From NCBI GenBank assembly GCA_021234155.1, contig JAJEKV010000075.1, positions 2,232,001 to 2,296,000 of the forward strand: a stretch of 64,000 bases of DNA. The letters run 5' to 3'. The stretch is from Isoetes taiwanensis (taxonomy: Eukaryota; Streptophyta; Lycopodiopsida; Isoetales; Isoetaceae). The notes beneath the pieces are model-generated. The model saw only the letters and a list, made by a program, of their open reading frames with translations. It did not search any database and had not been told where the DNA came from. The translations under genes and the position numbers were made by a program. Below, piece after piece: positions 22,182-31,623 of the stretch (within the stretch, counting starts at the first letter, position 1; every line of letters begins with the position of its first letter).

Positions 22182-22210
22182 GGGAAGGGACTCGCGAGAG
22201 ACACAAAACC
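22182..22210. repeat. Direct repeat B2
   Basis: 29 bases identical to B1 (23,215-23,243), starting gggaagggactcgcg and ending gacacaaaacc. It would be the 3' terminal copy of a split direct repeat. Identity stops at both sides. Confidence 0.8.
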
Positions 22211-22271
22211 CCATAGATAGATAGGCTTTGTCATTCATCACAAAGCTTAAAGATACAATGTGTGGAAGACT

Positions 22272-22367
22272 AGAGAGAGAGAGAGAGAGAGAGAGAGAGA
22301 GAGAGAGAGAGAGAGAGAGAGAGAGAGAGAGAGAGAGAGAGAGAGAGAGAGAGAGAGAGAGAGAGAG
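22272..22367. repeat. (AG)48 microsatellite
   Basis: An uninterrupted AG dinucleotide run of about 96 bases inside the 3' tail of the younger YR element; on the element's own strand it is a polypyrimidine (CT)n tract. Confidence 0.97.
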
Positions 22368-22844
22368 GGGGGTAGCCCACCATAGGAACAATATCCGACT
22401 ACCCCATAAAAAGAAATGTGCCGAGGCAATATAGAAGGGTAATGGCGACAACTTCTCATCGGGATAAAAACCCGATAAAAAACCTTTCCGGTTTTCGAGG
22501 AAAAGCCTAATGAGAAATGGTCGCCAACAACCTTGAATGTGTTGCCCGGAGAACGAGAGAAACGGATTGATGCCGAACCCAAAATAGAGCAAGACCCCGT
22601 AAGATCTAAAAACCCCGAATGCATCCATGGAGAACCGGCGAGATGGGTGATGGCTTAACGAAATACAACAGACCCCGTAAGACTACTTTTAACCCCGCAA
22701 GCAACACAAAAAACTCCCTAAAAACACCCATGAATGGTTAGAGAAAACAAACAGCATAGCCATGAAAAAACAAGCCGCATCAAGAAGGTCCAAGATATGA
22801 GGAATGAAAAACGATGAAAAAGAACATAACAGAAAAGATAGCAT

Positions 22845-23006
22845 CACCCATAGGGTGGAAAAGCATCACCCAAATGGGTGGAGAACCATTATGTAAAAAT
22901 ATGCATCACCCTCGAGGTGGAAATAAACAAAGATCACCCGCTGGTGGAGAATAACGCCATGATGCCGATGAAACGTAAAAACATGAGAATAGCAACACCC
23001 ACGTGG
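22845..23006. repeat. Array of five short hairpins in the 3' tail
   Basis: Five small palindromes spaced 20-60 bases apart: CACCCATAGGGTG (22,845), CACCCAAATGGGTG (22,867), CACCCTCGAGGTG (22,907), CACCCGCTGGTG (22,935) and CACCCACGTGG (22,996). The stem is conserved while the loop varies. On the element strand most are followed by 'atgct'. The same motif type occurs in the tail of the older element (35,661-35,830). Confidence 0.85.
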
Positions 23007-23087
23007 AGAACAACAAAGAGTGCATGAACAACAAAAAAATACAAATGAAAAAGACTCATGCGCCTACACAAAGCCAGGCTGGAAGGG

Positions 23088-23213
23088 AGGGAAGCTACGA
23101 GGAGAAGAAGAGTCAGCCGGGAGAAGACGCCGATAACCGGTCCGAAAACGGAAATGGCCTAATATAGGCCGCCCCTTCCTGTAATGGTGATCCGGCGACT
23201 CGACGATGGGATT
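23088..23213 (-). promoter_or_regulatory. Internal terminal-repeat copy A2
   Basis: About 126 bp similar to A1 (31,493-31,623), including 'gaagacgccgataaccggtc' and a TATA-like 'ctatattaggccatttcc' on the minus strand. It lies just after the recombinase and abuts B1. Confidence 0.7.
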
Positions 23214-27487: not shown

Positions 27488-27650
27488 CGACTTATGTCCG
27501 CGGATAGTTTTCTTTATTTAAATATAGATTACGGACCAAGTCCGCGGATGTGGCTACGGACCGAAGTCCGTGAATGTGGTCAGTATTCCTTCAACTGCGG
27601 GCCAACATCTAGATGGTGATAAGTCAACAAAGGAAAGTGGAACCCTTCAT
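27488..27650. repeat. Leader hairpins, copy 2
   Basis: Counterpart of 3,082-3,168: 'acttatgtccgcggat', 'acggaccaagtccgcgg' and 'acggaccgaagtccgt' in sequence. Stem bases vary by compensating-looking or CHG-site changes relative to copy 1. Confidence 0.7.
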
Positions 27651-30600
27651 CATGGATCCCCAAAAGGAAACAAATAATAACGATAAATAATAAGAAAGAA
27701 TGACAAGTAACTGAGGTAATAGGCAAAGAGGAAAAAACTTATCCATGGGAAAAATGCATAGACATAAAGAAGACAAAATGCAACTCGCATATGTTGTCAA
27801 AAACAAGTGCAATCGTGCATATGGCGACAAAAAACACATCATAGACAATAACAAAAAGAAAAAATGAGACCCCTAAAATGACCCGTATGTCAAAAAACAA
27901 GGAAACCCAACGCTGAAGATGCGAAAAACAATCGAAAGTTAATGCAGTAGTGCATAAAGGATGCCCACGTGCATGCAATCCCCCAAGTGATCAACAAGAA
28001 TGAGGAATAATGAGGAAAAATGACAAATAACCGCGGTAATAAGAGAAAGAGGAAAAACGTACCCATGGTAATGTGTAAAAGGCATAGACGTAAAAAAGAC
28101 AAAGTGTGACCCAACATATGACACCACATATGCAATAAAGGAAATAAAACCATGATGAGGTAGCGTATAAAATATGAAACAATGGCAACATCCCAAGGAA
28201 ATTACAACCTAGACCATAAGAGTAAAATGAAAAAAGTGAGCCAGAACATAGACAAGAAAAAACAACTCGATTGAATATTGTGGTGTACCGAAATGCAATA
28301 TAAAACATAACTGCAAAGGGTAAAAATCAACAACCACATATAATGCCACATCTCGAAAAAGCACATGTGAACCAAAATGTAAAAGTAACATATGAAAGAG
28401 ATACCTGGCGGAGGGAAGAACCACCCCCTATTACAAATGGCTTCACACTTAACAAGAGATAAATAGACGACCCTCATAGAAAAAAAAAAAGAACAAAGCC
28501 TAAAATTTATAAGAGAATGACACATATAGAAAACCACATGTCAACCTAACCGAAAAAAAATACCATATGAAAAATATACAACTCTGAGGGAAGAACCGCC
28601 CCTATTACAAATGCCCTAGTTGCCTCATACACACGAAGAACAACATACAAAATAGATAACCCCAGAGAAAAAAAGAAATAGAATCATCTTATTAAAATAT
28701 TTAGGATCCGTAAAACATAAAAGAGACATTACACAAATGCTTTATCCAAATTATTCAAAAGGTAGGGTGTCAATACCATATGATGCCAAGGCACGAGCAA
28801 AACCACCTTCCTTGAGCAAGGACAATCACGCGAGCAAGCCCAACAACGAGGCCACGAGATGAATCAAAACACCCGCTAGAACATAAACAAGAAAAAAGTA
28901 ATCCTAATAGCTAACAACCATTGAATAGTGCTAAGCATCGAAAACCAATAGAAAACACAATTGCAAAGGAGAAAAAAAATCCGAACCCACCATGGGAAAA
29001 ACATAAAAAAACATAAAATTATAAGATCATGCTATATATAAAGAAACCACATGGGAAACTCAAACGGAAAATGTAAAAAGGAACATAGGAAAAGAGATTC
29101 ATAACCAGATGAAGCACCGTATTACAAAATCCCCTAGTTGCCCTATACATGAGAACAACAACAAATAAAGAGGCAACCCCCTCATGGAAAAAGAAAAAAC
29201 ACTTAGGAACCATAATAAAACCCCATTCTTAGAACATTGATGGTCCAAAAAACATGAAAAGAGGCATAAGACAAATGTTTTATTTCATATTATTCAGCAG
29301 AGGATGACGACAGCAGAAAGAGGCAAGGACAATCACGCGAGCAGACCCAAAGAGATCGCTGGATAAGTGGGAATAAAAAGTGGGGGATACTCCATCATGA
29401 TGAGAAAAAATTCACGCAACTGAATGGGGCGTAAGGATGAAAACCCCCATAGCAAAATGACGTCCCCCAAGAAACGAGCACGAGCTGGGTCGAAAAGTTT
29501 ATAGGAACGGAATACTCGACTTTATTTAAGGAGAAAAGGAGGCATAAAGGCTAAGCCCTAAGTAATTCCCGCAGCCACCAATGTCCGCCTGCGGTAACCT
29601 ATAAGGCATTGCCAGCCGCTGGATGCAATGCGTTCAGATGTGATGTATAAAGGTGGTGAGTAGTCATCCCCATCTCCGGAGGTGCAAAAGGGGGAAAAAA
29701 ACCAAGACTGAAGATCTGGTGGAAACAAAGGGGGCAAGGGAACGGAATCGGAGCCAGCTAAGAACCAACAGAGGAACGGAAAATGAAGCGAGAGGGGAAA
29801 CAAAAGCCTGTGGAAAGGGAATTGTGGCAGAACATATTAATATGAGCAACGAAGAGGAACCAGAGGAACAAACGAATGGCCAGAAAACACATGCAAGCAA
29901 CAAGTGAATGGAAAAGCATGCAGCAGAAAGAGGGGCAGCCCAAATCCGATAAAAATAGATGGCCCTAAGAAGGAAGAGCCCAAATTACAGCAGAGGAGTG
30001 GTGGGAATCGACGGAAAAAGAAGCATAGATAGAACAAGAGCCATTGGATCGTGTCTGGCAAGCAACAGAAGGAAAGAAAACCTGCGTCCACCAGCATGCC
30101 AAGAGTTGATGAAGGCCAGACAGCGCCCACTTGCCCAGGACGGTGCCGAAACGCCCATTCGGCCAACAAGGGAGCAAATCGGCGAAAAAGAGGGAAGAGG
30201 CGACAGGACAAAAGGGAGGGGTTAAGCTGAACTGAAACCAGGATCAAGAAAAAACAGAGATTGGTCAGGGCAAAAAGACAATAGAAGAAGTGAAAAGGAA
30301 AACGTGAAGAGCACATGGTAAGGGTTAGGTGACGTTTAAGCTCTGAGAAGAGAGCTTTAAACCCAAGCCAACCAGAGAGCAAGCACCGGGCAAGGCCGGA
30401 GCAAAGAAATGGAACAAACGCTTAGGATGCAAACTCGTGAGGCGTAAGGATCTGATAGCGGATCCGCCGATAGGCTCAAGCCGGAAAAAATAGGTTAGAT
30501 ACGTTGATGACTTTAAGGTGTGAAACTTCGTGAAGTTGCTATATTTTGCCATTTTCTAAAAATCTGATTCGATGGTTTACTAGGATGCGCATACTAAAGA

Positions 30601-31003
30601 ACTTCATAAAATCGCCAAAATTTGATAATATTGCATCTCAATTATAGTAAATTCGCTAAATTAATGGACATTTTACAATAAAACCTCAATTTTATGGTAA
30701 AACATCCAATTCTACTCTATAAAAATGTTGGAAAAATAGAAAACAATCGCCACCATTTCTATAGTTTAGAAGCAGCTAGAGGATGATAAAGTCATCACTG
30801 GTTAGATAGAGGGAAAATCGAACAGAAAGAGGTGAACAAGGGCGAAAACAGAAGATTGAACCAAAACCGTGCAGCAAGACCCAACAGAGAGCAACCGATA
30901 AAGCCGAAGAGAAAAACGAAATCATCATATCGTAACAATCCAACATACCCAAGTCAAACTAAATCACAATTGTTGTGCAAAGACTAAACAGCCCATGCCA
31001 AGG
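27651..31003 (-). other. Leader of YR retrotransposon copy 2
   Basis: Non-coding leader with the same imperfect repeats as 3,286-5,000. Long blocks (for example 27,960-28,320 and 29,040-29,520) are identical or nearly so to copy 1, whereas 29,521-29,600 and 30,328-30,480 differ at short clustered sites. No gene seen. Confidence 0.6.
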
Positions 31004-31320
31004 ATTCAACCTGCAAATACATCCACAAGCCGTGCGAACAAAGAAAACAATAGAACAAAGAAATGTAGAGGATTAATGGTGATTCAACATGCGAATACAT
31101 AAAACAATAGAACAAAGAAATCTTACAAGATTCATGGTGATTCAACATGCGAAACTGCAACAAGCTGAAAACAACAGAACAAAGAGAAATCTACAAGATT
31201 AATGGTGATTCAACATGCGAATACATCAAACAAGAGAACCAACAAATCTACAAGAGTCATGATAATTCACCATGCAAACACCTCACCACACCGTGCGAAC
31301 AAGGAAAACAATAGAACAAC
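31004..31320. repeat. 57-68 bp tandem repeat, copy 2
   Basis: Virtually identical to 6,590-6,905, with the 'gtgattcaacatgcgaatac' anchor repeated. Confidence 0.85.
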
Positions 31321-31492
31321 GAAATCCACAAGAGGACTGGTGAGAAATTCCAAGCATAACGAGCAAGAGAAGAAGAAGGCATACCTTCCAAAGAAGGGTA
31401 AGAAAACTCGTGAGGAAGATGCCGGCGGCGAGGACGTGGAGACAGGAGCCGAAAGAGAAGCTCAAGAGAAAATCCATTGGTCGAAGAACCAT

Positions 31493-31623
31493 GGGAAGCT
31501 ACAAGAGGAGAAGAAGAGCTGCTGTGAGAAGACGCCGATAACCGGTCCGAAAATGGAAATGGCCTAATATAGGAGCTCGCCCCTTCCCAGAATGGCGATC
31601 CAATGGCTCGGATCGATGGGATT
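31493..31623 (-). promoter_or_regulatory. 5' terminal repeat A1 with TATA-like promoter, copy 2
   Basis: Counterpart of 7,079-7,209. Homology with A2 (23,088-23,213) ends at 'gatgggatt' (31,615-31,623), after which the older plus-strand RT resumes. Carries the TATA-like 'ctatattagg' on the minus strand. Confidence 0.65.

Follow-up and report, generated by a model that had tools for sequence, protein, structure and literature searches.

Which kind of retrotransposon resides in a 64,000-nucleotide stretch of the land plant Isoetes taiwanensis (contig JAJEKV010000075.1 of assembly GCA_021234155.1, positions 2,232,001 to 2,296,000; the whole stretch is called the window hereafter), and does it belong to an order from which land plants have been excluded? 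An earlier note, made from the sequence alone, had described an Ngaro/DIRS-like element with a tyrosine recombinase (YR) at 22182..31623. According to our analysis, the element is near certainly a YR retrotransposon of the DIRS order, within which PAT-like is the likely assignment and Ngaro a possible one. We consider it rather probable that it represents a PAT-like YR retrotransposon of a land plant with the order A1-leader-gag(CCHC)-reverse transcriptase (RT)-RNase H-Dam-like domain-YR-B1A2-B2, where A and B are repeats. Its parts are listed below; copy 1 is a second copy of the element's 5' part in the window.

22177..31623, minus strand: whole element, running from A1 (5' end, 31623) to B2 plus an AGAAT core (3' end, about 22177)
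31493..31623, minus strand: repeat A1, 5' end; the homology of an older host element restarts at most 4 bp from its edge
27492..31492, minus strand: long leader, about 4 kb
26271..27491, minus strand: gag, its frame broken by frameshifts in this copy
25243..25986, minus strand: RT (RVT_1, E = 2.7e-10); a single open frame contains both FPFGLASAPFVFTKL and YKDD
24593..25100 (approximate bounds), minus strand: RNase H, spread over more than one frame
24351..24692, minus strand: Dam-like methyltransferase (MT) domain with HHVDRFASPLNHKLP; the equivalent in copy 1 is at 1-261
23252..24303, minus strand: YR, interrupted; SAM-like N-terminal part at 23714-24280, box I LRISGALALNW near 23750
23215..23243, minus strand: repeat B1
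23089..23213, minus strand: repeat A2, separated from B1 by one base
22182..22210, minus strand: repeat B2, 3' end

The boundaries proposed in the earlier note agree with the split repeats, A1 starting at 31623 and B2 having its edge at 22182; comparison with other copies, with the junctions read by eye, sets the 3' edge better at 22177. B1 and B2 are identical in 29 of 29 bases (E = 3.8e-11) and the best stretch of A1 against A2 reaches E = 6.9e-22 within the window, and the split repeats are therefore not a product of chance. The Kimura distance between A1 and A2 is 0.124 in this copy, and the B1A2 junction is the counterpart of the element's two ends joined. The terminal repeats are direct and not inverted, which sets the element apart from DIRS1-like elements with their inverted terminal repeats and internal complementary region. 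Long terminal direct repeats (LTRs), the mark of LTR/Gypsy elements, were not found at the window element, and no DDE integrase family was matched in the Pfam scans of the window pieces and other-copy frames given. The lack of both features, already reported in the earlier note, thus holds for what was scanned. An RT together with a tyrosine recombinase, and no integrase match in the scanned pieces, places the element in the DIRS order.

The gag with a CCHC knuckle, the RT with its two motifs and the YR had all been noticed before and are all present on the minus strand. The knuckle (CTFCGRFRHTADNC) was read in copy 1, where gag is open over 345 amino acids (1856-2890), and gag is broken in the copy that had been described. 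The window copies are interrupted and not intact as assembled. The RNase H of copy 1 matched RVT_3 with 0.0062, below the cut-off. Tandem repeats of 57/68/126 bp (31033-31279) and degenerate repeats of about 300 bp (28342-29350) occupy parts of the leader, in whose scanned frames no Pfam domain was detected. SGNH hydrolases were not matched in the window frames scanned, the Rfam and tRNA gene scans returned nothing, and the junctions displayed no more secondary structure than shuffled sequences.

The same arrangement recurs throughout the genome. A search of the assembly (1,658,258,908 bases in 1110 contigs) with the RT-RNase H-MT protein yielded at least 103 matches, which is a lower bound as 94 of 5939 first-look candidates were scored. 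Apart from the query itself, these matches are 43-90% identical to it and many contain stops. Ten places were read, all picked from matches without stops, so that their pol frames (658-767 amino acids in all ten) are open by choice and the sample is biased; RVT_1 was found in each of the four open pol frames scanned (1.3e-16 to 1.9e-15). The A1...B1A2...B2 layout is present in nine of the ten, in a search for direct repeats only, with a distance of 5.2-9.1 kb from the start of A1 to the end of B2. A1 and A2 are 90.6-100% identical in these nine copies, and in three of them (C919, C1038 and C1089) the A repeats, of 127, 114 and 160 bp, are fully identical. A YR was located by tblastn at the same position in all ten places (with a frame of more than 250 amino acids in six), and a CCHC knuckle was read in nine. 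Recent movement of the family is suggested by copies whose pol and YR frames are open, and by copies in which the A repeats do not differ.

A tree of the ten copies resolves two lineages of six and four members (support 100/99 and 95/95). The second lineage, formed by C1040, C1059, C1089 and C1078 (L032-L039), has open pol frames and shares about 42-47% identity with the window protein; the repeats at the ends of the window family do not match its own.

The YR is legible mainly in these other copies. Two of their YR frames (L015 and L016, the two scanned) match Phage_integrase PF00589 above the cut-off (4.3e-8 and 6.5e-9), so that the recombinase named in the earlier note does score as a tyrosine recombinase, and in the open YR frames of other copies the R, K, HxxR, HGRW and Y boxes of tyrosine recombinases can be made out by eye. 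Within the window, the N-terminal half of the YR matches Phage_int_SAM_4 (PF13495) with 6.8e-5, below the curated cut-off, and PF02899 with 0.22, while the box I piece matches a PHROG 'integrase' with 0.2. Several observations weigh against our interpretation here. PF00589 was not matched in the window YR pieces scanned, profiles of the YRs of three reference elements (L002, L005 and L006, see below) miss the window YR, and C1059 shows no split-repeat pattern. For the window copy as such, support for the YR is weak. The negative result with the reference profile says little, because Pfam misses PF00589 in those three YRs as well. Searches of the PDB with the YR gave unrelated low-scoring matches only, and the predicted structure of the broken N-terminal piece has a mean pLDDT of 43.8.

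The three references originate from a motif scan of genome contigs, which at a looser setting returned six stretches, with L002, L005 and L006 encoding RTs of YR elements according to tblastn. The other three gave no match and hold short frames only, a stricter motif scan of the contigs returned nothing, and no relative was recovered from IMG/VR with alignments of RT or of YR, a mixed alignment or either of two DNA motifs. The records of L002, L005 and L006 are labelled Solidesulfovibrio, Propionicimonas and Proteobacteria and hold YR retrotransposon DNA of eukaryotic type; these bacterial labels likely reflect contamination in public metagenome-assembled genomes.

Comparison of the RTs bears on whether a Ty3/Gypsy-like RT element might merely adjoin a recombinase gene. 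The best solved relative of the window RT is Ty3 (4.6e-8), and trees do not reject a grouping of Ty3 with the plant rows (p-AU 0.207 and 0.108 in two trees), which also speaks against our assignment; a grouping of the window with L002 and L005 is likewise not rejected (p-AU 0.145). These trees hold few references and Ty3 and no named PAT or Ngaro rows, the program gave a warning of long branches in them, and they do not separate PAT, Ngaro and Gypsy. The window RT is 37-38% identical to L002, L005 and L006 over 110-133 aligned positions, with a best E of 1e-27 that is not directly comparable to the value for Ty3, as the searches differ in size. Given this likeness to YR elements, the missing LTRs and DDE integrase match, a YR in the same place in all ten copies and split repeats in nine, we regard a Gypsy-like element beside an unrelated recombinase gene as very improbable.

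Within the DIRS order, the assignment depends on the domain between RNase H and YR. The earlier note had taken HHVDRFASPLNHKLP for the end of RNase H, had seen no space for an MT and had concluded that the element was closer to Ngaro than to DIRS1 or PAT. The reason given for Ngaro fails and the placement drawn from it is not supported, as the motif belongs to a Dam-like MT domain, which aligns with a domain of L005 that scores as Pfam Dam. DNA methyltransferases are also what the HHVDRFAS stretch matches on its own, its sole PHROG match being PHROG_111 'DNA methyltransferase' (6.7e-5). The same family is the best PHROG match of all four pieces from other copies (1.3e-4, 2.3e-4, 0.0031 and 0.023), and the references reach it with 0.34 (L002), 0.074 (L005) and 0.006 (L006). 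The aligned stretch was recognized as Pfam Dam in L005 (3e-7, above the cut-off) and L002 (2.3e-4), and no Pfam Dam match was obtained for that of L006. A profile of the window and the references aligned with phage Dam at 95.5% probability (E = 1.6e-8, hhalign), and a control profile of RNase H from L005 and L002 was negative (0.1%). Among the window segments, a profile of the reference elements hit the two window copies only (1.2e-18 and 1.5e-8); as this profile starts at the end of RNase H, the former value may include some RNase H. The homology to MTs is thus established mainly through the three references.

A number of results count against this part of our interpretation. The window copies alone aligned with phage Dam at 22%, and a plant-only profile at 41% (E = 2.8e-4). 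The copy-1 piece matched Pfam Dam with only 0.21, behind PCIF1_WW (0.11), and the copy-2 piece gave no Pfam match for Dam. Among four pol frames of other copies, two matched Pfam Dam (0.20-0.29) and two did not, and a search of 1267 window segments with a phage-Dam profile had no significant result (scores of 1.5 and 4.6 for the two copies). The domain also lacks the catalytic NPP(Y/F) and reads FPP(P/A): motif IV is NPPF in L005, FPPP in nine of the ten genome copies and FPPA in C1040. Mean identity between the two plant lineages is 0.68 for the MT domain, 0.60 for RT and 0.50 for RNase H (24 pairs). As it is at least as conserved as RT and its motif IV is altered, we posit that the MT-like domain is maintained, though its role is probably not that of an ordinary adenine methyltransferase.

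According to a published key (PMC4157794), split direct repeats together with an MT denote PAT, Ngaro being without MT, as also stated in PMC3266345 and PMC9210276; a CCHC gag and internal repeats downstream of YR denote the echinoderm-type Pat1 form of PAT (PMC4157794). Our element displays A1...B1A2...B2 split repeats, an MT domain between RNase H and YR, and CCHC in gag. It shares with Ngaro the split direct repeats downstream of YR, and departs from it by the MT domain. We therefore favor PAT-like over Ngaro on the basis of this key. An Ngaro-like element would also have split repeats with B1A2 downstream of YR, and canonical Ngaro might likewise carry a degraded and unrecognized MT-like stretch, in which case the 'no MT' of the key would mean 'no scoring MT'. 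L006, which has the same stretch without a Pfam Dam match (PHROG_111 0.006), is in line with this, and the authors of the key warn of convergence in these features (PMC4157794). As the groups are divided by the MT (PMC4157794; PMC9210276; PMC3266345) and an MT homologue is found here, we consider an Ngaro-like nature unlikely, though still deserving attention. That an MT motif was taken for RNase H suggests that sensitive profiles are needed where this criterion is used to sort Ngaro from PAT.

The PAT-like element resembles the echinoderm Pat1 form as described in PMC4157794; it differs from it in its land-plant host and, in the window copy, the leader of about 4 kb, and may differ in its FPP(P/A) motif IV. 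With the Toc3 PAT elements of green algae it has split direct repeats, an MT and a green-lineage host in common; Toc3 is described without a zinc finger, whereas CCHC is present here (PMC4157794). The A-pol-B-A-B repeats, gag, RT, RNase H and YR and the lack of a DDE integrase are shared with Ngaro (PMC3783388; PMC9210276), which is described without MT, an SGNH hydrolase being described for some Ngaro only.

The junctions of nine copies, read by eye, are informative on the mode of integration. At the internal B1A2 junction, most members of the close family have ..CCCAGAAT-CCCATCG... Seven of the nine copies keep the element core at the 3' end and have a 5' end without the whole core. The final bases of the 5' end agree with the core over T, AT, AAT, GAAT or, in C1040, TAGAAT. 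The 5' end of C1061 resembles the core over about 10 bases with mismatches and could be an old copy of it. The remaining two (C1034 and C1089) have the same foreign 9-11 bp at both ends. Insertion by a DDE integrase should generate a duplication whose length does not vary. If a YR exchanges strands within a short core, and the mismatches there can be resolved in either direction, mixed junctions would be predicted.

For the mobility of the element, we infer from the model for the DIRS order that the RNA would be packaged by Gag and copied by RT, that B1A2 would serve as the template joining the two ends into a circle, and that recombination by YR would take place between this circle and a short core in the genome, with (A)AT at its end. 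As the YR would recombine the circle with the genomic core, no staggered cut by a DDE integrase would be needed. Tentatively, and with somewhat more doubt than conviction, we propose that land plants hold a recently active PAT-like lineage whose Dam-like MT has become a conserved pseudo-enzyme with a structural or nucleic-acid-binding role in replication, and whose integration leaves a largely host-derived core at the 5' end and, at the 3' end, a core of either the element or the host, in agreement with strand exchange by a recombinase.

The presence in a land-plant genome of copies that combine split repeats with open frames, some of these copies having terminal repeats without any difference, indicates an arrival of the order in land plants and recent movement there. 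DIRS elements were excluded from land plants in a 2022 review (PMC9033089, citing PMC3266345); the cited study describes green plants as devoid of DIRS1-like elements and the few Plantae copies as uncertain (PMC3266345), and, according to PMC3537659, no complete element of the type treated in that paper was known in streptophytes. Annotation tables speak against novelty, as conifer, fern and other tables already list DIRS or Ngaro entries: three conifers with 76/226/287 DIRS and 29/63/126 Ngaro members (PMC6301336), a fern with 361 DIRS pieces (PMC6890710), and a few DIRS and NGARO entries in a further table (PMC8729191). DIRSs are also listed among plant class I elements (PMC11630846, 2024) and were reported as 8.26% of Cunninghamia (PMC13415678, 2026). 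The conifer entries (PMC6301336; PMC13415678) bring YR-order labels to other land plants as labels or totals, with no anatomy, and in their light the earlier note was about right in calling YR retrotransposons only thinly described for seed plants. A described full-length land-plant element was not found in the literature searched, which left subscription journals and bioRxiv mostly outside its coverage. With the present family, circle formation and integration by a recombinase could be tested in a system from the green lineage, and its conserved yet altered MT domain raises the question of the role of this domain.

Around the element, the window holds parts of an older relative and a second, duplicated copy:

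21099..22138, plus strand: left part of an older related YR element, with gag and the start of RT; at the nucleotide level the homology extends only as far as 22034
31651..35233, plus strand: right part of the older related YR element (RT, RNase H at about 34239-34389, YR at 34473-35233)
1..7209, minus strand: copy 1, the second copy of the element's 5' part, inside a duplication

The minus-strand element was inserted, reversed, into its older plus-strand relative. On the B2 side, about 120 extra nucleotides within 22035-22181 are unexplained and align to the element no better than shuffled sequences. The left junction is accordingly not fixed by host homology, a point against the boundaries proposed here, and comparison of the left with the right flank, as an attempt at the empty site, gave nothing beyond shuffles. 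Between element and older relative, ten blocks contain mismatches at 143/281 sites of the best phase and 119/564 elsewhere, a contrast as high being found in 0/2000 shuffles; the best phase was picked block by block, in the shuffles likewise. This pattern points to protein-coding constraint acting while the two diverged. In the older element, 84 nucleotides (34389-34473, plus strand) lie between the RNase H and YR matches, and the MT-like stretch seems to be missing, by deletion or true loss.

A RAM2-like GPAT gene lies 7 kb from the element (13784-15300, plus strand; PF23270, 1.9e-28), of a type which we take to be a marker of land plants, and the attribution of the DNA to a land-plant genome in the earlier note is upheld by it. 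The reading frame of this gene shifts near 14985 and meets an in-frame stop soon afterwards; the gene may be a pseudogene or carry a base-calling error. It also bears on whether the element could stem from an alga, fungus or animal whose DNA contaminates the assembly, since contaminating YR elements do seem to exist, as with L002, L005 and L006 in bacterial-labelled records. Here, the element sits in a 6.3-Mb contig near this gene, is nested in a relative and duplicated, and its matches are spread over many contigs of the assembly, several of them longer than 20 Mb; contamination is hence hardly credible.

The duplication pairs 7-11281 with 24454-35705 (93.5% identical, about 11 kb) and holds the element's 5' part with its flank. 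As both duplicates contain the same element-flank junction, the insertion is older than the duplication. The Kimura distance between the duplicate copies is 0.040, and they differ by 226 gaps (179 of a single base) and 428 substitutions. The many short gaps are hinting at uncorrected long-read indels; in view of the single-base gaps and the frameshift and stop in the GPAT gene, we make no claim on the share of real frame breakage.

Further retroelement remnants are scattered over the minus strand of the window. Fragments of zf-RVT of the LINE (long interspersed nuclear element) type lie at 9135-9638 (1e-9), 17075-17866 (1.7e-14) and 46220-47014 (0.028, below the cut-off), the first of them being flanked, within the block of copy 1, by parts of the older YR element. 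A retroviral polymerase SH3-like domain at 56514-57161 (PF25597, 3.9e-26) is probably a Copia-like remnant.

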